Shown here piece by piece: positions 4,053-21,948 of a stretch of 23,275 nucleotides of DNA. The stretch spans positions 1-23,275 of the IMG/VR virus record IMGVR_UViG_3300035698_000849. One strand, written 5' to 3'. The notes below the pieces were generated by a model. The model was not told the origin of the DNA. It saw only the letters and a program-made list of their open reading frames with translations, and ran no database searches. The DNA comes from a virus. The first letter of the stretch is position 1, and each line of letters begins with the position of its first letter. The translations under genes and the position numbers were made by a program.

Positions 4053-4270
4053 ATAAAAAAAGAGCAATAGCATTTGTACTGAGTACATTTTTTGGTGCAT
4101 TTGGAATACATAGAATTTATGTAGGAAAGACAGGAAGTGGAGTAGCAATGCTTCTGATAGGGTTAACTTTTGTAGGACTAATTGTTACAAGCATTTGGAA
4201 TCTTGTGGATTGGATTATGCTTATTACTGGAGACTTTACAGACGGGGAGGGTAATAAAATGGACTGGTAA
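4049..4270 (+). CDS. TM2-domain membrane protein, 73 aa
   Basis: The whole protein is a TM2 domain: MNKKRAIAFVLSTFFGAFGI with the hallmark GIHRIYVGKTGSGVAM, a second hydrophobic helix (LLIGLTFVGLIVTSIWNLVD), and the typical ending WIMLITGDFTDGEGN. TM2 proteins have two membrane helices joined by a short turn and are found in many bacteria, mostly with unknown roles. This one would sit in the host inner membrane. It starts within the previous stop (ATGA) and ends one base before the methyltransferase ATG, so all are one operon. A role in altering the host surface or excluding other phages is possible but not shown. Confidence 0.88.
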   Translation: MNKKRAIAFVLSTFFGAFGIHRIYVGKTGSGVAMLLIGLTFVGLIVTSIWNLVDWIMLITGDFTDGEGNKMDW

Positions 4271-4271
4271 T

Positions 4272-5597
4272 ATGAAAATTGATAACAAAGTAAAAAGCCT
4301 AAAAACAATAACTGTAAAAGAGTTTCTACAGTTGCAATTTAATACTCTAAAAGACCCGGAAAGAGATGTATCAAAGCTAGTAAAGACCATCATTAAGAAC
4401 GGGTGGTCTTTCCCCGTATTTGTATGGGCAGGGCATGATTATGTTATCGATGGTGCAGGTCGAAAACTTGCAGTTGAGCAACTTATAAAACAAGGGCATG
4501 AGATAAAAGAAATCCCGGTACTTGAGATCGAAGCAAAAGACCTCGATGAAGCAAAAAGAAAAGTGCTAGAAGTATCGTCACAATATGGAGATGTAACGAA
4601 AGATAGCTTCAGATTGTTCGCGGACGGTTTAGATCTAGACTTTGATGATTTTAATATTAAGGGGATTGATAAGGACATTATGCTCGACCCAGAGAAGGAA
4701 GATGACGAAGTACCAGAGACTCCAGAGAAAGCTACAAGCAAAGAGGGTGACGTTTATGAACTAGGGCCACACCGACTAATGTGTGGAGACAGTACAGATA
4801 TGGAAGATGTAAGCAAGCTAATGAACGGAGTGAGCGCTGACATGGTATTTACTGACCCACCATACAACGTGGACTACTCAGGACGCGGAAAAGAAACTTC
4901 AAACAAAATCATGAACGACAAGATGGACAAGAGTGACTTTGATTTATTTTTGAATGATGTATTCGAGTGTTTCTCAAAATCAAGCAAGACGGGCGCACCT
5001 TGGTATGTTTTTCATAGCTCAAGTACACAGCACCAATTCCAGGCTGCAATCGATAACTCAGGGTGGAAGGTAAAGAACCAGATTATATGGAATAAGCCTG
5101 TCGCAAGCATGGGGTGGGGTGATTACCGATGGAAGCATGAGCCAATGTTCTACTGTGGGAAAGAAAAAACCCAATTCTATGGTGACAGGACTCACCATAC
5201 AGTGCTAAACATTCCAGACTCAGACGAAGATGCAGTGAAGTGGGTACGAAAACAAAGAGAAGCTGAGAAGCACGGACAGTCAACAGTATGGACAATGAAG
5301 CGCGACAGTGTGAATCAATATGTACACCCGACCCAAAAGCCCGTAGAACTTATAACTTACGCACTAGTGAACTCAAGTAAAGAGGATGACATTATCCTGG
5401 ACTTATTTGGAGGAAGTGGGTCAACGTTGATCGCAGCAGATAAAATGAACCGTATAGCACACCTTATGGAACTTGACCCAAAGTACATAGACGTGATTGT
5501 TCAAAGGTATGTAGACTACACGGGGAACATGGAGATTATAAAAAACGGAAAGAAAGTAAAGAAACAGTTATCAGTTAGCGTAAAAGATGTATGTTAA
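4272..5597 (+). CDS. ParB-domain / DNA N6-adenine methyltransferase fusion, 441 aa
   Basis: I use ATG 4272; the frame is open further upstream but that part overlaps the TM2 gene. Residues ~1-130 are a ParB-like domain with VIDGAGRKLAVEQL at 58-71. Residues ~155-425 are a beta-class methyltransferase: TDPPYNVDY with the catalytic DPPY at 195-198, HPTQKP at 342-347, and the SAM-binding LDLFGGSGST at 366-375. DPPY before FxGxGxT and the DPPY form point to N6-adenine methylation. ParB-methylase fusions are common in phages and may give site recognition or protect phage DNA from host restriction. No restriction nuclease is nearby. The 3' end overlaps the SAM synthetase gene by seven bases. The recognition site cannot be read from the sequence. 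Confidence 0.93.
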   Translation: MKIDNKVKSLKTITVKEFLQLQFNTLKDPERDVSKLVKTIIKNGWSFPVFVWAGHDYVIDGAGRKLAVEQLIKQGHEIKEIPVLEIEAKDLDEAKRKVLEVSSQYGDVTKDSFRLFADGLDLDFDDFNIKGIDKDIMLDPEKEDDEVPETPEKATSKEGDVYELGPHRLMCGDSTDMEDVSKLMNGVSADMVFTDPPYNVDYSGRGKETSNKIMNDKMDKSDFDLFLNDVFECFSKSSKTGAPWYVFHSSSTQHQFQAAIDNSGWKVKNQIIWNKPVASMGWGDYRWKHEPMFYCGKEKTQFYGDRTHHTVLNIPDSDEDAVKWVRKQREAEKHGQSTVWTMKRDSVNQYVHPTQKPVELITYALVNSSKEDDIILDLFGGSGSTLIAADKMNRIAHLMELDPKYIDVIVQRYVDYTGNMEIIKNGKKVKKQLSVSVKDVC

Positions 5598-6598
5598 AAA
5601 CAGCAGAATGTGTTTCACCGAAGCACCCGGACAAAATGTGTGATCAGATAAGCGATGCAATACTCGATGCTTATCTAAAACAAGACCCAGAATCAAGAGT
5701 AGCGGTAGAAACTATGGGAGGTCATGGAAAAGTATATTTGACAGGAGAGGTAACTTCAAAGGGAAATGTAAGCCATGCAGAACTTGAAGACATTGTTCAA
5801 AGAATTTCAGAAACAAGTTTATTTGATATAAACATAGTAGTACAAAGCCCAGAGATTGCTCAAGGTGTTGATACAGGAGGTGCAGGAGACCAAGGAATTA
5901 TGAATGGGTTTGCATGCCTTGGAAACAAAGAGTATGTACCTCTAGAATACTACTACGCTCGATCACTGTGTAAGTCTTTATATAAGAAGTTTCCATATGA
6001 CGGAAAGACCCAAGTAACGATAGGAGAGATGGGCGAAATTGAAACTATTGTAGCAAGCTTTCAAAACACAACACAAAAAGAACTACAGGATGCCGTTAAT
6101 ATTTGGATAGATGCACACAGGGCAGACATGGCAATCAATCATGTTATACACGCCAACCCGGCAGGAGATTGGAAACAGGGAGGCTTTGATGCAGATGCAG
6201 GACTTACTGGGCGAAAAATTGCTATAGATAACTACGGGCCAATGATTCCAATAGGAGGAGGTGCATTTTCAGGAAAAGATGCTACAAAGGTAGACCGAAG
6301 CGCAGCATACATGGCTCGAATGATTGCAAAAGAACTTCTTATTGAGGAAAAGAAGCTTGATCTAAAATCAGGAATAGACTCAGTATTTGTACAGCTAGCA
6401 TATGCAATCGGAGTAAGAGAACCAGTACAAGCAATCGCACACAAGAACTACAAAGACGGAAAGACAGTATCAGAAGAAGTTACAGGTTACGACCTAACAC
6501 CACGAGGAATATCAGTAGCACTAGACCTGAAGAAACCACAGTACGAGAAGACAGCTAAATGGGGACACTTTGGCAATGACTTCACCTGGGACAAGTAA
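5591..6598 (+). CDS. metK: S-adenosylmethionine synthetase (methionine adenosyltransferase), 335 aa
   Basis: Makes SAM from methionine and ATP. All signature parts are present in order: ECVSPKHPDKMCDQISDA at 6-23 (catalytic H12), GAGDQGIM at 97-104, DGKTQVTI at 137-144, DAGLTGRKI at 202-210, and GGGAFSGKDATKVDRSAAY at 222-240 with the conserved Lys and Asp residues. It ends HFGNDFTWDK. At 335 residues it is about 50 shorter than the usual bacterial enzyme (~380-400), with the loss in peripheral loops, so it looks active. It starts inside the methyltransferase stop region (seven-base overlap), so both are likely made together. A phage-borne copy could keep SAM available for methylation. Confidence 0.95.
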   Translation: MLKTAECVSPKHPDKMCDQISDAILDAYLKQDPESRVAVETMGGHGKVYLTGEVTSKGNVSHAELEDIVQRISETSLFDINIVVQSPEIAQGVDTGGAGDQGIMNGFACLGNKEYVPLEYYYARSLCKSLYKKFPYDGKTQVTIGEMGEIETIVASFQNTTQKELQDAVNIWIDAHRADMAINHVIHANPAGDWKQGGFDADAGLTGRKIAIDNYGPMIPIGGGAFSGKDATKVDRSAAYMARMIAKELLIEEKKLDLKSGIDSVFVQLAYAIGVREPVQAIAHKNYKDGKTVSEEVTGYDLTPRGISVALDLKKPQYEKTAKWGHFGNDFTWDK

Positions 6599-6916: not shown

Positions 6917-7315
6917 ATGAAAGATAAAAAGCCTACAACAGCAGAGAAAAAAGTAGTGAAGCCAGAAAAAACAGGTAAAGAAATACGAGAAGAAAACCTG
7001 ATACCTTTTAAGAAAGGAGAGAGTGGAAACCCTGAGGGAAAAAAGCCCGGAACTAGAAACTTCTCAACTATTTATAAAGAAGCCCTAAAGAAGCTCGCAA
7101 TGAAAAACGGAATGGAACCTGATCAGCTAGAAGAAGACATTCTTGTAAAAGCTCTACAGAGTAGCTATAACGGAAACTTCAAGTATTTCAAAGATATACA
7201 CGACAGACTACACGGCCAACCAATAAAAAGTATTGACCATACCACGGGAGGCGACAAGATACGAACCAATACTATAACTTTTGTGAATTACGATGGCGAA
7301 CCAGAAAGTCAATAA
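6917..7315 (+). CDS. Probable terminase small subunit (DUF5681-like), 132 aa
   Basis: I use ATG 6917; an in-frame TTG at 6902 lies within the -10 box and is unlikely. The N-terminus is lysine-rich and disordered, then KKGESGNPEGKKPGTRNFST at about 37-56 matches the DUF5681 pattern (FxxGxSGNPxGRPxG). Helices follow (YKEALKKLAMKNGMEPDQLE, then ILVKALQSSYNGNFKYFKDI). Proteins of this kind lie directly before large terminase genes in many phages and are taken as small subunits that choose the DNA end to package. Its 3' end overlaps the large subunit gene by 23 bases, which supports this. The DUF match is from memory. Confidence 0.75.
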   Translation: MKDKKPTTAEKKVVKPEKTGKEIREENLIPFKKGESGNPEGKKPGTRNFSTIYKEALKKLAMKNGMEPDQLEEDILVKALQSSYNGNFKYFKDIHDRLHGQPIKSIDHTTGGDKIRTNTITFVNYDGEPESQ

Positions 7316-8564
7316 AAAATACACACCACTGTTTGTATCAGACAAGCGATACATCATACTCATGGGAGGTCGTGGTGCGGGGCGTTCTTATGGCGCGAGC
7401 CAGTATGCAACCGCAAAGATTGAATCCCCGGAGTATTTTCGATGCGCTATTATGCGCCTTGTTGCAGGAGATATTCGAAACTCTATATTCCAAGATATAC
7501 ACGACCGAATAATCGAAGCGGAAACCGAGGACATAATTAACATAAAAGAAAACTCTTTAATTTTTACTTGTGGCGACAATAAGATCAACGGGATAGGATT
7601 CAGAAAGTCATCCGGCGACCAGAAGTCTAAGCTTAAATCACTAGCAAGCTATAACTGCGTTATTATCGAGGAATCAGATGAAGTAAGCGAGGAAGACTTT
7701 ATTCAACTGGATGACTCGTTGAGGAAATCAGGATCAGATATAAAAGTTATAATCTTGCTCAACCCGCCAAGCAAACAGCACTGGATTATCAAACGATGGT
7801 TCAATCTAGTTCCAAGCGAACAGCCAGGGTTCTATACGCCCGTCTTGAAAAGCAAATACGAGCATAACACCGACTTTATTCATACAACATACCTCGACAA
7901 TATAGAAAATCTTAATCCTAGTACCATTGATAACTGGGAGGCATACAAAGAGAGCAAGCCAGACCATTATTGGAATATGATCAAAGGACTTGTAAGCGAG
8001 GGTGCGCGCGGTCGTGTTTTCAAAGATTGGAATATAATTAACAAAGCGGAATATGATGCACTGCCATATCCAGAATACTACGGGCTAGACTTCGGATTCA
8101 CCAATGACCCAACAGCACTGATCGGAATTAAAGAACATAACAACAAGGTATATTTTCATGAGCTAGTGTACGAACGTGGACTTGTAAACCGTGACCCAAG
8201 TGGAAACAAGCCAAGCATCTCGCAACGCCTAGAAGAAAACGGAGTAAGTAAAGATGCTATTATTTATTGCGATAGTGCAGAACCTAAGTCAATTGATGAG
8301 CTATCGATGGATGATTGGAACGTTGTACCTGCTATAAAGGGCGCTGACAGCGTTAATACAGGGATTGACCTGTTACTGTCCAAAGATATCTTTTATACCG
8401 AGGAGAGCGAGAATTTAGCCATTGAACAACAAGAATACAAGTGGGCGCTTAACCGTGACAAAGAACCAACCAATAAACCAATTGATAAGTTTAATCACCT
8501 TATAGATGCAGGTCGATACGGGGTGTATACAAGCAGTAAAGAATCATTCGTAGGATTTTCATAA
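7293..8564 (+). CDS. terL: Terminase large subunit, 423 aa
   Basis: Motor and nuclease of head filling. ATPase part: Walker A GGRGAGRS at 25-32 (with R31 where Lys is usual), Walker B CVIIEESDE at 122-130 with E126/E127, and a coupling motif around VIILLNPPSKQHW at 152-164. Nuclease part: three metal-binding acids in GLDFGFTNDPT (D266), IIYCDSAEP (D327) and HLIDAGRYG (D405). This is the Terminase_3 / PBSX-like layout and normal length. The ATG at 7293 lies in the small subunit's 3' end in another frame; the start is supported by MANQKVNKKYTPLF preceding the ATPase fold at normal distance. Such enzymes may package by headful or cos sites; the sequence does not decide. Confidence 0.95.
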   Translation: MANQKVNKKYTPLFVSDKRYIILMGGRGAGRSYGASQYATAKIESPEYFRCAIMRLVAGDIRNSIFQDIHDRIIEAETEDIINIKENSLIFTCGDNKINGIGFRKSSGDQKSKLKSLASYNCVIIEESDEVSEEDFIQLDDSLRKSGSDIKVIILLNPPSKQHWIIKRWFNLVPSEQPGFYTPVLKSKYEHNTDFIHTTYLDNIENLNPSTIDNWEAYKESKPDHYWNMIKGLVSEGARGRVFKDWNIINKAEYDALPYPEYYGLDFGFTNDPTALIGIKEHNNKVYFHELVYERGLVNRDPSGNKPSISQRLEENGVSKDAIIYCDSAEPKSIDELSMDDWNVVPAIKGADSVNTGIDLLLSKDIFYTEESENLAIEQQEYKWALNRDKEPTNKPIDKFNHLIDAGRYGVYTSSKESFVGFS

Positions 8565-8565
8565 T

Positions 8566-8727
8566 ATGCAACCAACAAACACAGAAAAACAAATACTAGA
8601 AATATTAAAAGACCTCTCTTCCAACATAGAGTTCGGAAATGTTTTACTTGATGTTTCTTTCAGGGCAGGCAAGATGACACGAGTTGAAGTTACACAAACA
8701 ACTAAAAGTATTGTGCTAAAAGATTAG
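8566..8727 (+). CDS. Small DUF2292-like protein, 53 aa
   Basis: A short gene starting one base after the terL stop. The first helix, EKQILEILKDLSSNIEFGNV, is followed by two strands, LLDVSFRAGKMTRVEVTQTT, then SIVLKD. The order (a helix, FGNV, then a strand-turn-strand with GKMTRVEV) recalls DUF2292, small proteins with the pattern helix-YGSV-xxxGxVVxI. Function unknown. It ends at 8727, where the promoter for the portal operon takes over, so the -35 of that promoter lies inside this gene. Confidence 0.7.
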   Translation: MQPTNTEKQILEILKDLSSNIEFGNVLLDVSFRAGKMTRVEVTQTTKSIVLKD

Positions 8728-8738
8728 TGTGTTATAAT
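8711..8738 (+). promoter_or_regulatory. Promoter of the portal/head operon (extended -10)
   Basis: TATAAT at 8733-8738 preceded by TGT, making TGTTATAAT, with a partial -35 (TTGTGC) at 8711-8716 and a 16-base spacer. The same GTGTTATAATT is found at 19957-19967 before the tail-fibre cluster. The predicted start is near 8745, just before the conserved leader core. Confidence 0.7.
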
Positions 8739-8744
8739 TTAAGT

Positions 8745-8796
8745 AACTCGAACGGAACAACCGCAGGGCGTACCAAAGTGGTCATGTAAAGCGGTT
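8745..8796 (+). promoter_or_regulatory. Structured leader RNA, copy 1 (upstream of portal)
   Basis: A non-coding ~52-base leader between promoter and portal ATG. It holds AACGGAACAACCGCAGG (8751-8767), shared with 19978-19994 except for one C/T change. The next four bases differ by two further transitions. AACCGC at 8759-8764 pairs perfectly with GCGGTT at 8791-8796, which touches the ATG at 8797. Inside, ACCA (8772-8775) pairs with TGGT (8779-8782). CGG-AACAA-CCG (8753-8763) offers a competing small hairpin. No Shine-Dalgarno is present. It could control translation or bind a factor; it matches no riboswitch class I can recall. Confidence 0.6.
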
Positions 8797-10767
8797 ATGT
8801 TTGAAAATCTCCAAAAAACAATTAAAGATGCATTCAGTAGAAAAACTCTTAACAGTCTTGATGGTATTTTACCATTTAAAATGGGCGCATATAAGAACAG
8901 ATGGGATGGCTCAAACTACCTAGAAGCCTATGAAATATCACTCTATGCAAATAAGTGTATAGAAAAACGAGCTGAGAAAGTAAGTGAGATTGATTTCAAA
9001 CTAATGAAAGGTGAGGTTGAAATTAAGAATAATAAACTCATGGAAGTTTTATACAAGCCGAACAAGATACAGTCAGGGCGAGAATTCTGGGGATTATTTC
9101 AAAAATACAAAGATATATTCGGAGAGGTATATATTCTTATTGATGGCGACATTTCTATAACTGGGGATAAACGTGTAAACGCTATGCACCTTTTACGACC
9201 CGATAAAGTAAAACCTTTTTTTAGTGAACAAACAGGAGAGATTACAAAAGTTGAATACCAAACAGCAAGTGGAACGTCAACATATCAATCAAATCAAATT
9301 GTTTACCACAACCGTCCAAATCCTCGTAATCCTTTACGGGGTGTTTCTCTTTTAGCAGCAGGAGTACGCTCTATCGAAACAGGAGTGCAGATTGACGAGT
9401 ACCACGCAAAGATATTGCAAAATGGTGGGCGTGTAGAGGGTATATTTAAGTTTAAAAACAAACAGCTTACACAGACTCAACTCGATGCATTAAAAGACCA
9501 GTACGATAATCAGTACGCAGAGGCGCAGAATTCAGGACGTCCGCTATTTCTTGGAGGCGAGGGAGACTACGAAAACATTGGTCTATCACCGTCAGAACTT
9601 TCATACCTAGAAACCAAAAAAGTAACACTCGAAGATATTTTAATAATGACAGGAGTACCGAAAGCAATTCTCGGTTCTTTCGATGACATTAAATTCGATA
9701 ACGCAGATGCAGCGGTTCGTATATTCTTACGAGAAACAATCCGACCACTACTACAAGACATCACAACAAAACTTGATTCGTTTCTGTTTCCAAGTGATTT
9801 AGACCTTTCTTTTGTTGATCCAACACCAGAAAACATAGAGCAAGAGTTAAAAGAAGTAGAGAGCGGAATCAAAAACTATTACATGACACCAAACGAAGCT
9901 AGAAAGAAGCGTGGTCTTGACCCATTAAAAGGTGGTGACGAAATACTAATCCCATTTAATCTGGCACCAGGATTGCAATCAGTAGCCGAAAAACAGCCCA
10001 TAGACGTCAAAGCAAAGGTTATTGATACGAATCATCCTCTAAAGGACTATGACAACCGTAGAGCGTACGAGAAGCTAGCTATCAAACGCCTAGACCGCCA
10101 AGAGCGACAAATGAAGCGAGAAGTTGACACTTACTTTAAAAACCAGATGAACCGCATTATTGACTCTGTAAGCCCAGAGCAAAAGTACGCATTTAAAAAG
10201 AAAGACCTTGTAAGTGAAGTATTCAATCAGCAAATTGAAGTTGCAATAGCAAAAGAAACATTCTTCCCGTTATTGGAAACACTACTTGAGGAGGCAGGAG
10301 TAAACGCTCGAGCTATTGTAGGCCCAGAGTTTAATTTTCAAATGACAGCGAACGCTAAGTCATGGCTTGATAACAAAACTGCTATTTTTGCAGAACAAAT
10401 CAACAGCACTACATTCGAGAAACTCAAAACAGAATTTGAAACTTCGTTTGAAATAGGAGAAACACGAAAAGAACTTGTCGAGCGAATAGAGGATACATAC
10501 GGAAACATTACAAAAGCTCGTGCGCAAACTATAGCAGCAACTGAAGTGCATGGAGTCACACAGTACGGGACACTTGATGCCTACAAACAAGCGGGCTTGC
10601 CTACAAAGATATGGGTAAGCGTAGGCGATGGCAAGGTTCGACCATCTCACCAGTCAATAGACGGGCAAGAGGTAGAACTCAACGGTTACTTCTCGAACGG
10701 TCTAAACTTCCCAGGTGACCCAAGTGGATCAGCTGCGGAAACAATAAACTGCAGATGTGTCATTTAA
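8797..10767 (+). CDS. Portal protein fused to MuF-like minor head domain, 656 aa
   Basis: Residues ~1-410 are an HK97-type portal: a small N-terminal part, EAYEISLYANKCIEKRAEKV, IFGEVYILIDGD, NQIVYHNRPNPRNPLRGVS (about 167-185), and TLEDILIMTGVPKAILGSFD (about 277-296). Portals form the 12-part ring through which DNA enters and the tail joins. Residues ~430-570 are helical. The last ~83 residues are a MuF-like (SPP1 gp7-type) domain: IAATEVHGVTQYGTLDAYKQ, then GDGKVRPSHQSIDGQEV, ending PSGSAAETINCRCVI. In many phages these are two genes; here they are one frame with no stop, so the minor head protein would be built at portal copy number. The gene follows the structured leader directly. Confidence 0.92.
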   Translation: MFENLQKTIKDAFSRKTLNSLDGILPFKMGAYKNRWDGSNYLEAYEISLYANKCIEKRAEKVSEIDFKLMKGEVEIKNNKLMEVLYKPNKIQSGREFWGLFQKYKDIFGEVYILIDGDISITGDKRVNAMHLLRPDKVKPFFSEQTGEITKVEYQTASGTSTYQSNQIVYHNRPNPRNPLRGVSLLAAGVRSIETGVQIDEYHAKILQNGGRVEGIFKFKNKQLTQTQLDALKDQYDNQYAEAQNSGRPLFLGGEGDYENIGLSPSELSYLETKKVTLEDILIMTGVPKAILGSFDDIKFDNADAAVRIFLRETIRPLLQDITTKLDSFLFPSDLDLSFVDPTPENIEQELKEVESGIKNYYMTPNEARKKRGLDPLKGGDEILIPFNLAPGLQSVAEKQPIDVKAKVIDTNHPLKDYDNRRAYEKLAIKRLDRQERQMKREVDTYFKNQMNRIIDSVSPEQKYAFKKKDLVSEVFNQQIEVAIAKETFFPLLETLLEEAGVNARAIVGPEFNFQMTANAKSWLDNKTAIFAEQINSTTFEKLKTEFETSFEIGETRKELVERIEDTYGNITKARAQTIAATEVHGVTQYGTLDAYKQAGLPTKIWVSVGDGKVRPSHQSIDGQEVELNGYFSNGLNFPGDPSGSAAETINCRCVI

Positions 10768-16117: not shown

Positions 16118-16426
16118 ATGAGTAAAATCCAATTAACAAAATCAGAAGTTAACGTAAAGGACGAACTAAGTTGGGGTGACAGTGAGAAAATTCAATCTGT
16201 TATTATGAGTGGCGCAAAAATGAAAGGAAACGCGCAAGCTGACATGAACTTTGACTTTGACCCGTCTTCAATGCTAGAAGCAAAATACGCGGCGCTAGAA
16301 TGTGCTGTCGTAAGTATTAAGGAGGGAGAGAAAGAGTTTAAGTTTACTCGTGAATGGATGAATGAACTTTCACAGGTTGATGGTGAAAAACTTTACAAAG
16401 CTGTAGATGCACTCTCGTCAAAATAG
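16118..16426 (+). CDS. Tail assembly chaperone, short form (G-like), 102 aa
   Basis: A small, acidic protein: LTKSEVNVKDELSWGDSEKI, then an internal strand-helix part (EAKYAALECAVVSIKEGEKE) and a C-terminal helix (WMNELSQVDGEKLYKAVDAL). Position between tail tube and tape measure, small size, and an overlapping -1 frame after its TAG mark it as the short chaperone form, like lambda gpG. It coats the tape measure during tail building. A few molecules are extended by frameshifting into the frame ending at 16638. Confidence 0.82.
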   Translation: MSKIQLTKSEVNVKDELSWGDSEKIQSVIMSGAKMKGNAQADMNFDFDPSSMLEAKYAALECAVVSIKEGEKEFKFTREWMNELSQVDGEKLYKAVDALSSK

Positions 16427-16477
16427 CAAGGGACTACACACAGCTACAGAGAGAACTGCAGGGAAAACGTAGTCCCT
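16420..16477 (+). promoter_or_regulatory. -1 ribosomal frameshift signal
   Basis: AAAA at 16420-16423 sits directly before the TAG (16424-16426) of the short chaperone. A lysine tRNA on AAA can slip back one base and still pair fully. Five bases downstream of the A-run, AGGGACTAC (16429-16437) pairs perfectly with GTAGTCCCT (16469-16477), a 9-bp stem of the kind that stalls ribosomes. Slip site, stop in the next position and stem spacing together make a good signal, although it is not the classic seven-base form. Confidence 0.8.
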
Positions 16478-16638
16478 CGAAATTAGTCCAAATGGAACTT
16501 TTCTCTCGAACATACGGATGGACACCAAAGCAAATAAGAGATACAAGCATTCAAGACATAGAAGACTACAAATCTATTATAAGCATTCGCAATCAAATAG
16601 AGAGAGCGGAAAATAAAAAGCAAAACCGTGGCAGATAA
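16423..16638 (+). CDS. Tail assembly chaperone extension (T part of G-T fusion)
   Basis: The -1 frame continues from the slip site as IARDYTQLQRELQGKRSPSK, then LVQMELFSRTYGWTPKQIRD and a basic end, stopping with TAA at 16636-16638. It adds 71 residues to the 102 of the short form (173 in all). In lambda and related phages this part binds the tape measure and tail tube. The phrase FSRTYGWTPKQIRD is typical of this part. It has no good start of its own at its beginning, so it is probably made only by frameshifting. Its last codons overlap the tape measure GTG at 16628. Confidence 0.82.
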   Translation: MARDYTQLQRELQGKRSPSKLVQMELFSRTYGWTPKQIRDTSIQDIEDYKSIISIRNQIERAENKKQNRGR

Positions 16639-19953: not shown

Positions 19954-19966
19954 ACTGTGTTATAAT
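19937..19966 (+). promoter_or_regulatory. Promoter of the tail-fibre cluster (extended -10)
   Basis: TATAAT at 19961-19966 preceded by TGT, identical in TGTTATAAT to the portal promoter. A partial -35 (TTGGTA) lies at 19937-19942 with an 18-base spacer. The predicted start is near 19973. The -35 overlaps the end of the hub gene. Confidence 0.65.
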
Positions 19967-19977
19967 TATAATATCCC

Positions 19978-20026
19978 AACGGAATAACCGCAGGATGTCA
20001 AAAACCTAAAGTTATTCAAATCTATT
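19978..20026 (+). promoter_or_regulatory. Structured leader RNA, copy 2 (upstream of fibre cluster)
   Basis: AACGGAATAACCGCAGG (19978-19994) is the same core as in copy 1, with C changed to T. Here GAATAAC (19982-19988) pairs perfectly with GTTATTC (20011-20017). As in copy 1, the 3' strand follows an AAAG/TAAAG run. AGG and CCT in between (19992-19994, 20004-20006 area) can form a short inner stem. The ATG follows at 20027. The core is at the very start of the predicted transcript in both places. Confidence 0.55.
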
Positions 20027-20230
20027 ATGAAAATTGAAAAAGCAAATACAGTAAAAAATAACGCAGTAGACATAACCCGCTCTCCCGTAATACAGCCTAA
20101 AATACGTTATACTTTAGATGATATTAGAAAGAAAATAGAATATCTTGATATGTCTATTCAAAAGTTTCAAGCAACAAAAGCAGAATTGCAAACATTATAT
20201 AATCAATCAGATGCAAAAATTAAAGAATAA
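20027..20230 (+). CDS. Small helical protein, 67 aa
   Basis: First gene behind the second leader. The N-terminus is extended (MKIEKANTVKNNAVDITRSP), then a long helix (LDDIRKKIEYLDMSIQKFQA, KAELQTLYNQSDAKIKE) with heptad-like spacing suggests a coiled coil. It stops two bases before the next gene. It could be a small tail or fibre assembly helper, by location only. No known family is recognised. Confidence 0.7.
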   Translation: MKIEKANTVKNNAVDITRSPVIQPKIRYTLDDIRKKIEYLDMSIQKFQATKAELQTLYNQSDAKIKE

Positions 20231-20231
20231 C

Positions 20232-20672
20232 ATGTCGTTCATAGGAAAACTAACTATTCGTAAATATAAAAACGGAAAACTTATTAGTGTTCAAAAAGAA
20301 ACAAATAAGGTAGTCAGCTCTAGCGGTTACGGGCGAAATCTTGTAATACGCCAATTAGCAAACGACCAGACCTATGGAATTGCTATCAATAGCGCAAAGA
20401 TTGGAGATGATGACACACCGCCTACTAACGGCGACACAGACCTAGGAAATGCAATCGTTTCAGGAATACTCGTAGCAAATCAGTCAGTGTCAAACGACAG
20501 TGCAACATTTCAGTTTTTTATAAGCGCAGGAACGTTACCTGATGGAACTTATGAAGAGTTCGGAATGTTTATCGGTGGGCGTTTATTTTCAAGGGCAGTA
20601 TTTTCAAGTCCTTATTCAAAATCTGTAGGAGAGGACACGCGTGTAGATTATCAAATAACTTTAACTGGATAA
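20232..20672 (+). CDS. Tail-fibre-associated protein, 146 aa
   Basis: I use ATG 20232 (MSFIGKLTIRKYKNGKLISV); the longer frame from 20145 overlaps the previous gene. The protein is beta-rich and polar: VVSSSGYGRNLVIRQLANDQ, AINSAKIGDDDTPPTNGDTD, SNDSATFQFFISAGTLPDGT, YEEFGMFIGGRLFSRAVFSS. Strand-turn pairs of this kind, with IGDDDTPPTNGDTDLG followed by TYEEFGMF, are seen in structural tail proteins near fibres of many uncultured phages. It would lie at the tail tip. Its exact role is unknown. Confidence 0.75.
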   Translation: MSFIGKLTIRKYKNGKLISVQKETNKVVSSSGYGRNLVIRQLANDQTYGIAINSAKIGDDDTPPTNGDTDLGNAIVSGILVANQSVSNDSATFQFFISAGTLPDGTYEEFGMFIGGRLFSRAVFSSPYSKSVGEDTRVDYQITLTG

Positions 20673-20673
20673 T

Positions 20674-21948
20674 ATGGGAATTATAGCAGGACAAGATGCT
20701 TTAGCATCAGACTTTATAAACGAGAGCGAAAAAAATGCAACGCCGGCAAATGATGAGGGGCGTGTCTCTAAACTTAATGAAAGCGGATCTATAGATAGTG
20801 TATTTTTACACAGAAGCTCTGGTGATGGTTCAGATGGCGCATTAAATATTGGTGATGGTGTTACCACAACTTTAAATACAGGACAAATTTATAATTACAC
20901 GACTATTGATATCCATATAAATGGAACTCTTAAGTTTACAGGAAATGACTGGATAATTTTAAGAACGACCGGAGATGTTGATATTCAAGGAACTGTTGAA
21001 GCAAAAGGATTAGCTACAGAAACAAAAGGTTTAATTGCATTCGGTGTTGCACTTTCAGGCGGTACACCTATGTCAGAAAGTCTAGGAAAGGGTGGAATCG
21101 CAGGTGATGTAAGTGCAGGTGACGGAGGTGATGATGGAACGACAAGTCCTAGTGATGGAGCGGGTGGAGCTAGTGGTGCAACAGGTGTTGATGGAAATAA
21201 CGGAAATGGAACTACTGTAGGTGGTGGAGGAGGAGGTAGCGATATAGAAGATGGTGGAGGAAACCCAGGATCAAATGCTAGTGGTAAAAATGGTGGCGCA
21301 GGAGGTTCAAATACAAATGACAATGGTGATGGAGGTGCAGGAGGTGCAGGTGTTGATGACGGTAACGGTGGCGCAGGAGGTACAGGAGATAATAGAGTTA
21401 ATGGATATGGTGGCGCAGGAGGAAGTTCAGGTAAAAACGGAGGTAGCGGTGGTGCAGGAGGTGCAGGAGGTCACGGTGCAAAAGGAGGTGATGGATACAT
21501 AAATGGAGGTGATGGTGGTAACGGGCTACAATTCAATAGTTACGGATATGGTGGCGCAGGAGGAAGTGGTGGAATAAAAGGAGGTGACGGTGGCGCAGGA
21601 GGTGCAAGTTCTGACGGTGGTTCAGGTGGCGCAGGTGGAAATGGAACAGGTGGAGCTACCGCATTTTACATGTACTGTGGTGGAGATTTGTCATTTTCTG
21701 GAACACTTAATGCTTTTGGTGGTGATGGAGGTGACGGAGGTGATGCGTTTTCAGTAGGTGGTGTAGGTGGAAACGGAGGTGACGGGAGTGATGTATTTAT
21801 TATTTATACAGGAACAAGTACTGTGTCGGGGTCTATAAATAATACTGGAGGGACTTCAGGGCAAGGTGGTACTAGTAGTGCAGGTGTAAAAGCAAAAAAT
21901 GGAAAAAATGGAAATTCAGGAAGAACTATAATAACTAAAATAGTTTAA
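20674..21948 (+). CDS. Glycine-rich adhesin-like tail protein, 424 aa
   Basis: The N-terminal ~125 residues have a beta-structure part (TIDIHINGTLKFTGNDWIIL, then RTTGDVDIQGTVEAKG), as in proteins with a stacked beta fold. From ~140 to ~330 the chain is dominated by GGAGG, GGDGG and GGNG runs with Asp, Asn and Ser between. A short hydrophobic part (ATAFYMYCGGDLSFSG, ~330-345) separates these from a second Gly-rich run, and it ends GRTIITKIV. Glycine runs of this kind form polyglycine helices in the receptor-binding tip protein gp38 of phage S16 and similar adhesins. I infer a cell-surface binding role; there is no direct sequence match to gp38. Confidence 0.75.
   Translation: MGIIAGQDALASDFINESEKNATPANDEGRVSKLNESGSIDSVFLHRSSGDGSDGALNIGDGVTTTLNTGQIYNYTTIDIHINGTLKFTGNDWIILRTTGDVDIQGTVEAKGLATETKGLIAFGVALSGGTPMSESLGKGGIAGDVSAGDGGDDGTTSPSDGAGGASGATGVDGNNGNGTTVGGGGGGSDIEDGGGNPGSNASGKNGGAGGSNTNDNGDGGAGGAGVDDGNGGAGGTGDNRVNGYGGAGGSSGKNGGSGGAGGAGGHGAKGGDGYINGGDGGNGLQFNSYGYGGAGGSGGIKGGDGGAGGASSDGGSGGAGGNGTGGATAFYMYCGGDLSFSGTLNAFGGDGGDGGDAFSVGGVGGNGGDGSDVFIIYTGTSTVSGSINNTGGTSGQGGTSSAGVKAKNGKNGNSGRTIITKIV
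21292..21602 (+). repeat. Direct repeats in the glycine-rich gene
   Basis: The 14-mer GGTGGCGCAGGAGG occurs exactly at 21292-21305, 21367-21380, 21409-21422, 21550-21563 and 21589-21602, each coding Gly-Gly-Ala-Gly-Gly. Around the third and fourth copies the identity extends to 24 bases (21403-21426 and 21544-21567). Such repeats can expand or contract by recombination, so the gene length may differ between relatives. Confidence 0.85.

Follow-up and report, generated by a model that had tools for sequence, protein, structure and literature searches.

Two promoter-plus-leader units precede late operons

The window, by which we mean the whole 23,275-nucleotide stretch of viral DNA analyzed here, carries two promoter-plus-leader units at the sites described for them in an initial annotation; one lies 5′ of the portal gene, and the other lies 5′ of the tail-fiber cluster. 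The features of both units and of the genes around them are as follows.

7293–8564, + strand: terminase large subunit gene (Pfam Terminase_3, 2.7e-27), directly 5′ of the DUF2292-type gene
8566–8727, + strand: DUF2292-type gene, 53 aa, between terL and leader 1; candidate trans-acting factor, with profile matches in relatives
8711–8738, + strand: promoter 1; weak -35-like TTGTGC (8711–8716), 16 nt, extended -10 TGTTATAAT (8730–8738)
8747–8768, + strand: leader 1, 5′ (antiterminator-type) hairpin, CTC-[GAA]-CGG-{AACAA}-CCG-[CA]-GGG, with covariation
8759–8796, + strand: leader 1, competing hairpin, AACCGC/GCGGTT, in the place occupied by the terminator of relatives
8797–10767, + strand: portal protein with Mu-F domain, gene 1 of the head operon (Pfam Phage_portal 1.2e-52, Phage_Mu_F 8.3e-14)
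19958–19966, + strand: promoter 2; extended -10 TGTTATAAT, with TTGGTA 18 nt 5′ of TATAAT
19973–19996, + strand: leader 2, 5′ hairpin, ATCC-[CAA]-CGG-{AATAA}-CCG-[CA]-GGAT
19982–20017, + strand: leader 2, possible competing hairpin, GAATAAC (19982–19988)/GTTATTC (20011–20017), separated by 9 nt from the ATG at 20027
20027–20672, + strand: first small ORFs of the tail-fiber cluster, under leader 2 (20027–20230, then 20145–20672, PHROG 5417)

A 17-base core is common to both units (AACGGAACAACCGCAGG at 8751–8767 and AACGGAATAACCGCAGG at 19978–19994), and with up to 3 mismatches allowed these are its only two matches in the window, where shuffles would be expected to give 0.05 and none of 100 gave two. 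Exact matches to the extended -10 sequence are likewise confined, within the window, to 8730–8738 and 19958–19966. Over the 21 bases compared between the units, the three differences (C/T, G/A, and C/T) are all transitions, as had been noted. The stem in the window starts 6–7 nt past TATAAT, which is approximately the expected transcript start. The pairing of AACCGC (8759–8764) with GCGGTT (8791–8796), described earlier as running up to the start codon, is real, in that it abuts the portal ATG at 8797 and is present in the minimum-energy fold. The first genes are also those originally named, namely the portal gene (Pfam Phage_portal) after copy 1 and small ORFs opening the tail-fiber cluster after copy 2.

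Elsewhere in the window, an N6/N4 DNA methylase gene is directly followed by an S-adenosylmethionine synthetase gene (4182–6598), such that the methyl donor supply adjoins its user. Just 3′ of a gene that ends at 16426, and ahead of the tape-measure gene, positions 16428–16480 hold an inverted repeat (AGGGACTAC ... GTAGTCCCT), which could represent either a hairpin or a portion of a tail-chaperone reading frame with a frameshift. Further, a glycine-rich tail-fiber-like protein with long GGAGG-type repeats (20674–21948) has no Pfam or PHROG match.

The shared core makes up half of a conserved RNA hairpin

A portal protein search, followed by terminase and portal alignments, yielded >100 relatives among viral contigs; no close cultured relatives of the window phage were found. 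The only genome match in this search was L303 (QNDS01000005.1), which is filed as a Candidatus Fermentibacteria MAG (35,898 in length, equal to viral contig 3300013101_000041, L147) and is probably a misbinned phage. Comparison with the related contigs revealed that the shared core supplies half of a conserved RNA hairpin, and that the same element, with different stems, lies directly 5′ of relatives' portal genes at portal identities of 41–82%. Further copies in related phages and covariation of the leader RNA, two outcomes the lack of which would have counted against the proposal of the initial annotation, were both obtained.

The conserved element is a single hairpin, comprising (i) an outer stem of ~4 bp, (ii) an internal loop, (iii) an inner stem of 3 bp, and (iv) a loop of mostly 4–5 nt, usually a 5-nt A-rich one (mostly ANNAA). 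Its stems differ between relatives, as in L133 (CTTC-AAG-CGG{ACTAA}CCG-ATA-GAAG), L134 (CCTC-AAA-CGG{ACAAA}CCG-ATA-GGGG), L237 (ATCC-AAA-TGG{AAAAA}CCA-AA-GGAT), and L275 (ACTT-GCA-GGA{AAATA}TCC-GT-AAGT), and the leader 2 hairpin is also found in L003, L005, and L010. A first covariance model, built from 17 sequences, was searched against all related loci and then against whole records. Model R1 matched the window at 8740–8777 (22.7 bits) and at 19967–20002 (30.9 bits), leader 1 and leader 2 themselves being in its training set. Low-scoring model matches within genes (window 16480–16529, L154, L191, L218, and others) were discarded on inspection, and exact 17-mer matches in L001, L002, L004, and L006–L009, which have no promoter or leader context and resemble coding sequence, were dropped. 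The DNA pattern TATAATN{6,16}CGGAANAACCG, for which the matches listed among viral contigs numbered at least about what chance would give, was used only for known relatives.

Covariation was evaluated on a 37-sequence alignment, consisting of the first set plus sequences from second copies, from divergent leaders, and from Gram-positive loci. Paired cells amounted to 96.1%, against 71.8% after shuffling, a percentage biased towards structure by hand placement and by N filler in the internal loop. Compensatory double changes were present at 7/7 pairs, and double-change cells numbered 72 against 20.7 in shuffles, a value reached in 0/500 of them; moreover, the pairing signal collapsed once partners were slid by one column, and the 17-sequence first set agreed with this larger result. 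Hand placement accounts less readily for the range of outer stems that pair fully (for instance GACU/GGUC, GUCU/GGAC, CGCU/GGCG, and CUCC/GGAG). These compensatory changes in the proposed stems indicate that the leader hairpin is a structured RNA. The covarying stems are not those originally suggested: in leader 1 they are CTC (8747–8749)/GGG (8766–8768) and CGG (8753–8755)/CCG (8761–8763), rather than AACCGC/GCGGTT. A search with Rfam 15 covariance models found no family in the window, at leaders of relatives, or at leaders of the Gram-positive loci described below.

Whole-record searches uncovered second or third leader copies in G002, G003, G004, G006, and G008; the number per relative is two or three, distributed over head, major-tail, and tail-fiber operons. 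Those at the major tail protein gene lie directly before it (G008, 20555) or one gene before it (G003 and G004), and those at tail-fiber genes are in G002, G006, G004 (17485), and G008 (25471); each of these additional copies has its own -10 box and its own terminator or AUG-proximal stem. A -10-like box precedes 30/33 leaders, such short AT-rich boxes easily arising by chance. In L268, the leader is farther upstream than first listed, and hairpin and terminator are both present on closer reading.

The hairpin excludes a terminator or a start-codon-proximal stem

In most relatives, the 3′ arm of the hairpin re-pairs with an intrinsic terminator, the U-tract of which reaches the start codon. 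The right-hand half (AACCGATAG and similar) re-pairs in many relatives with CTATCGGTTTTTT, which runs into the ATG; this pairing is an intrinsic terminator, and it cannot coexist with the first hairpin. The competing stems are 10–17 bp long (L133–L135, L152, L158, L230, L237, L262, L267, L273, L291, L297, and others), and the terminator form is preferred in folding of relatives' leaders. For most terminator-bearing leaders, the combined score of hairpin and competitor tops all 12 shuffles of the leader's own sequence. Most relatives therefore display the two hallmarks of a terminator/antiterminator attenuator, namely exclusive hairpins and an intrinsic terminator as the second of them.

The window taken alone does not display the second of these hallmarks, since its second hairpin lacks a U-tract, there being no good one in either of its copies. 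In the same enumeration, leader 1 of the window does not top its own shuffles in combined score, and the case for it as a switch rests on homology. In leader 2, the competing stem is weaker than the 5′ hairpin (−3.9 vs −5.6 kcal/mol). In L144, L234, and leaders like them, as in the window, the competing stem has no clear U-tract and ends close to the start codon, which suggests that the switch there may act on translation; control of translation rather than of termination may thus apply to the window copies and some relatives. The initial annotation had proposed a shared control element, and its suggestion of a leader RNA governing the first gene of a late operon, possibly through antitermination, gains support from the copies in relatives, the covariation, and the overlapping terminators; its AACCGC/GCGGTT stem is better read as the competing state than as the conserved functional stem.

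A DUF2292-type gene accompanies the leader

The protein encoded between terL and the leader has 47–70 aa in phages, and its gene lies directly upstream of the leader in nearly every leader-bearing phage. Pfam DUF2292 matched 6/20 aligned members (best E 7.4e-5), the window member alone not being called, and there was neither CAT_RBD nor PRD among the Pfam matches of this protein. Its window member has a predicted structure of a helix and a β-hairpin (pLDDT 86), for which a fold search against the PDB gave no significant match among solved structures, and proteins of this type have a net charge of only −1 to +5. Some other DUF2292 queries gave no tblastn matches in phages. Contigs with both terL and portal genes divide into ∼20 that carry gene and leader together, ∼22 that carry neither, and one (L260) in which the gene occurs but no leader does; a more cautious table gave a Fisher p of 3e-9, which overstates independence, the contigs being partly close relatives. 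In L260, a -10-like TATAAT upstream of 5078 lies almost on the portal ATG, and in L270 a leader-like structure is present with no DUF2292-type gene detected.

We take OscA to be a member of DUF2292. In B. subtilis, yezD is entered among genes of unknown function (PMC10714963, PMC6385201), and Pseudomonas oscA, which clusters with sulfate transport genes, is described as coding for a small protein without known function (PMC2996968). The papers found in our literature searches on YezD, DUF2292, and OscA report no RNA role or RNA partner, and the link between DUF2292 and an attenuator comes from the present analysis.

The pairing of gene and leader extends to Gram-positive loci. In a Cytobacillus sulfate-assimilation locus, which came from the protein search, a SAM riboswitch and yezD are followed by GCUGACUAG{ACAAA}CUAGAGGCG with a terminator, and then by the PAPS reductase (cysH) operon. 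That riboswitch, upstream of yezD in L315 and away from the leader, is the sole Rfam match in the Gram-positive loci. The stretch at 2245–2700 of L315 places two attenuators, SAM riboswitch and hairpin/terminator, one after the other on a single sulfur operon. In a Latilactobacillus prophage region, DUF2292 is followed by the leader and then by ArpU-type late regulators, and streptococcal satellite phages have the DUF2292-leader pair too; in all three settings, no more than a few bases separate the DUF2292 stop from the hairpin, and the leader is intercistronic. Priestia plasmid DUF2292 genes have no obvious leader. In satellites L324, L325, L326, L327, L331, and L332–L335, gene and leader lie mid-genome, before capsid/packaging-type genes, and the satellite unit could be responding to a helper-phage factor or mimicking one.

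A scan of viral contigs for the RNA sequence alone returned 50 loci, which we divided by a terminator threshold of ≥12 bp; the DUF2292-leader pair of streptococcal satellite phages and of a Latilactobacillus prophage was among those retrieved. Among the 18 with a terminator, 16 have a DUF2292-type ORF ending 0–14 nt upstream, while in the other two the ORF lies 302 nt upstream (L372) or the locus is cut by the contig end; no such ORF is upstream of any of the 32 loci lacking a terminator (0/32). Counted as distinct sequences, where the match at the contig end belongs to a group with complete members, the ORF accompanies 10/10 with a terminator vs 0/16 without (p = 1.9e-7). Because the patterns scanned for derived from the leaders of these satellites and prophages, and proteins of the same elements formed part of the profile, close kin are expected to be recovered; the proteins of L345, L362, L372, and L380 differ, yet they score (E 0.0053 to 1e-4).

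A proposed protein-dependent attenuator and its alternatives

Taken together, the sequence comparisons establish a conserved hairpin, a predicted second hairpin exclusive with it, repeated use at late operons, and pairing with DUF2292. The RNA switch itself is well supported. We consider it fairly probable that the leader is an attenuator RNA in which the hairpin is the antiterminator, probably stabilized by the candidate factor DUF2292, and we class it, among the known attenuators, as a novel RNA family whose candidate regulator is likewise new. In such a scheme, (i) late-operon transcripts would carry an attenuator RNA at their 5′ end or close to it; (ii) the 5′ hairpin would be its "on" state; (iii) the default "off" state would be the terminator or the AUG-proximal hairpin; (iv) the small DUF2292 protein would probably be made from the preceding terS-terL transcript; (v) it would bind and stabilize the 5′ hairpin; and (vi) its accumulation would turn on head, tail, and fiber operons together. 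The close link with DUF2292 points to a protein-dependent attenuator, and action in trans fits best, because leader 2 of the window and the additional copies in G002–G008 have no adjoining DUF2292 gene, and because the stop codon of the window gene (8725–8727) lies upstream of the promoter's -10 box. That DUF2292 is the hairpin-binding factor, and hence binds RNA, we infer from association only; the state that it favors would presumably be the "on" one.

Among the other explanations, the hairpin could act on RNA polymerase as a put-type RNA, or bind a metabolite as a small-molecule riboswitch, with DUF2292 a mere neighbor. The leader is compact, conserved, and 5′-proximal, with transcriptional and AUG-proximal platforms as in riboswitches, and genes for a SAM synthetase and a DNA methylase are present in the window; we nevertheless judge this unlikely, since the leader matches no Rfam family, its hairpin, at 22–27 nt and with a short loop and variable stems, offers little space for a metabolite pocket, and the almost perfect association with DUF2292 in phages, in satellites, and in a sulfur operon would go unexplained. 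It is quite unlikely that DUF2292 binds the leader but favors the "off" state or autoregulates, giving negative feedback rather than late-gene activation: a protein recognizing the covarying hairpin, which excludes the terminator, should promote read-through, and late operons must be turned on, although a leader directly after the DUF2292 stop, as in Gram-positive loci, would suit feedback on downstream genes. That same proximity of stop codon and hairpin in satellites, Latilactobacillus, and Cytobacillus would also suit ribosome-mediated attenuation in cis, whereby translation of the DUF2292 ORF selects the hairpin and the protein is irrelevant. We regard this as distinctly improbable, given the stop codon upstream of the -10 box in the window, the copies without an adjoining gene, the 302-nt distance in L372, and the conservation of the protein as a family.

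An ordinary small RNA gene of 60–90 structured nt, situated by chance 5′ of portal genes, would account for the promoter, structure, and terminator found in many relatives, but is very improbable for an element that occurs two or three times per genome, always directly 5′ of a start codon, and of which some copies keep the hairpin without a terminator and those in Gram-positive loci are intercistronic. Finally, a plain DNA site at late promoters, bound by a transcription regulator (which the initial annotation had also allowed) or by a sigma factor, would agree with a core near the -10 box common to both promoters, but has a negligible chance of being correct, as double changes at paired positions of both stems, together with the overlap with the terminator, reflect selection on RNA folding, and the Gram-positive copies lie between genes.

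DUF2292 (YezD/OscA) could constitute, as we tentatively suggest, a novel family of RNA-binding antiterminators, very small in size and having a cognate hairpin of its own, which would turn on late operons in tailed and satellite phages and control sulfate assimilation in bacteria, phages having taken a cellular regulator with its RNA target, or the reverse. This would give a testable function to a family of unknown role in well-studied bacteria (YezD, OscA), place a ∼50-residue protein among the smallest sequence-specific antiterminators, and, through an RNA element absent from Rfam, tie the control of late genes in phages to satellite phages and to sulfur metabolism.

Comparison with known systems

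In the BglG/LicT system, a small protein-recognized hairpin (RAT) shares one arm with an intrinsic terminator, and binding leads to read-through. Our leader hairpin likewise shares an arm with a terminator, whereas its sequence differs, it has one internal loop where RAT has two, and its partner is a protein of 50–70 aa with no Pfam CAT or PRD, which places it outside the RAT group. ANTAR targets comprise two hairpins with six-base loops, while the leader is one hairpin with a loop of mostly 4–5 bases and thus falls outside that group. The ANTAR antiterminators EutV and NasR nonetheless offer a parallel, in that a protein promotes an antiterminator exclusive with a terminator at several operons (PMC3369931, PMC8934654), just as an antiterminator-type hairpin exclusive with a terminator recurs at several operons here.

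HK022 put RNA and λ N/boxB are promoter-proximal phage RNA hairpins that govern operons through antitermination, and put and nut do not re-pair with a terminator; put RNA suffices by itself, with no phage protein. The leader is also a promoter-proximal phage hairpin, with an A-rich pentaloop as in boxB; however, its hairpin and terminator are mutually exclusive as a rule, and in nearly all sequences its loop opens with A after the closing G-C, unlike the GNRA-like GAAAA/GAAGA pentaloop of boxB. The S-box/SAM riboswitch (RF00162), one of which lies upstream of yezD in Cytobacillus, has a different and far larger aptamer, with no match at the leader itself, but follows the same expression-platform logic. 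As for the candidate regulator, the protein of the neighboring gene probably belongs to the DUF2292/YezD/OscA family (Pfam PF10055), which the 6/20 matching members would suggest.
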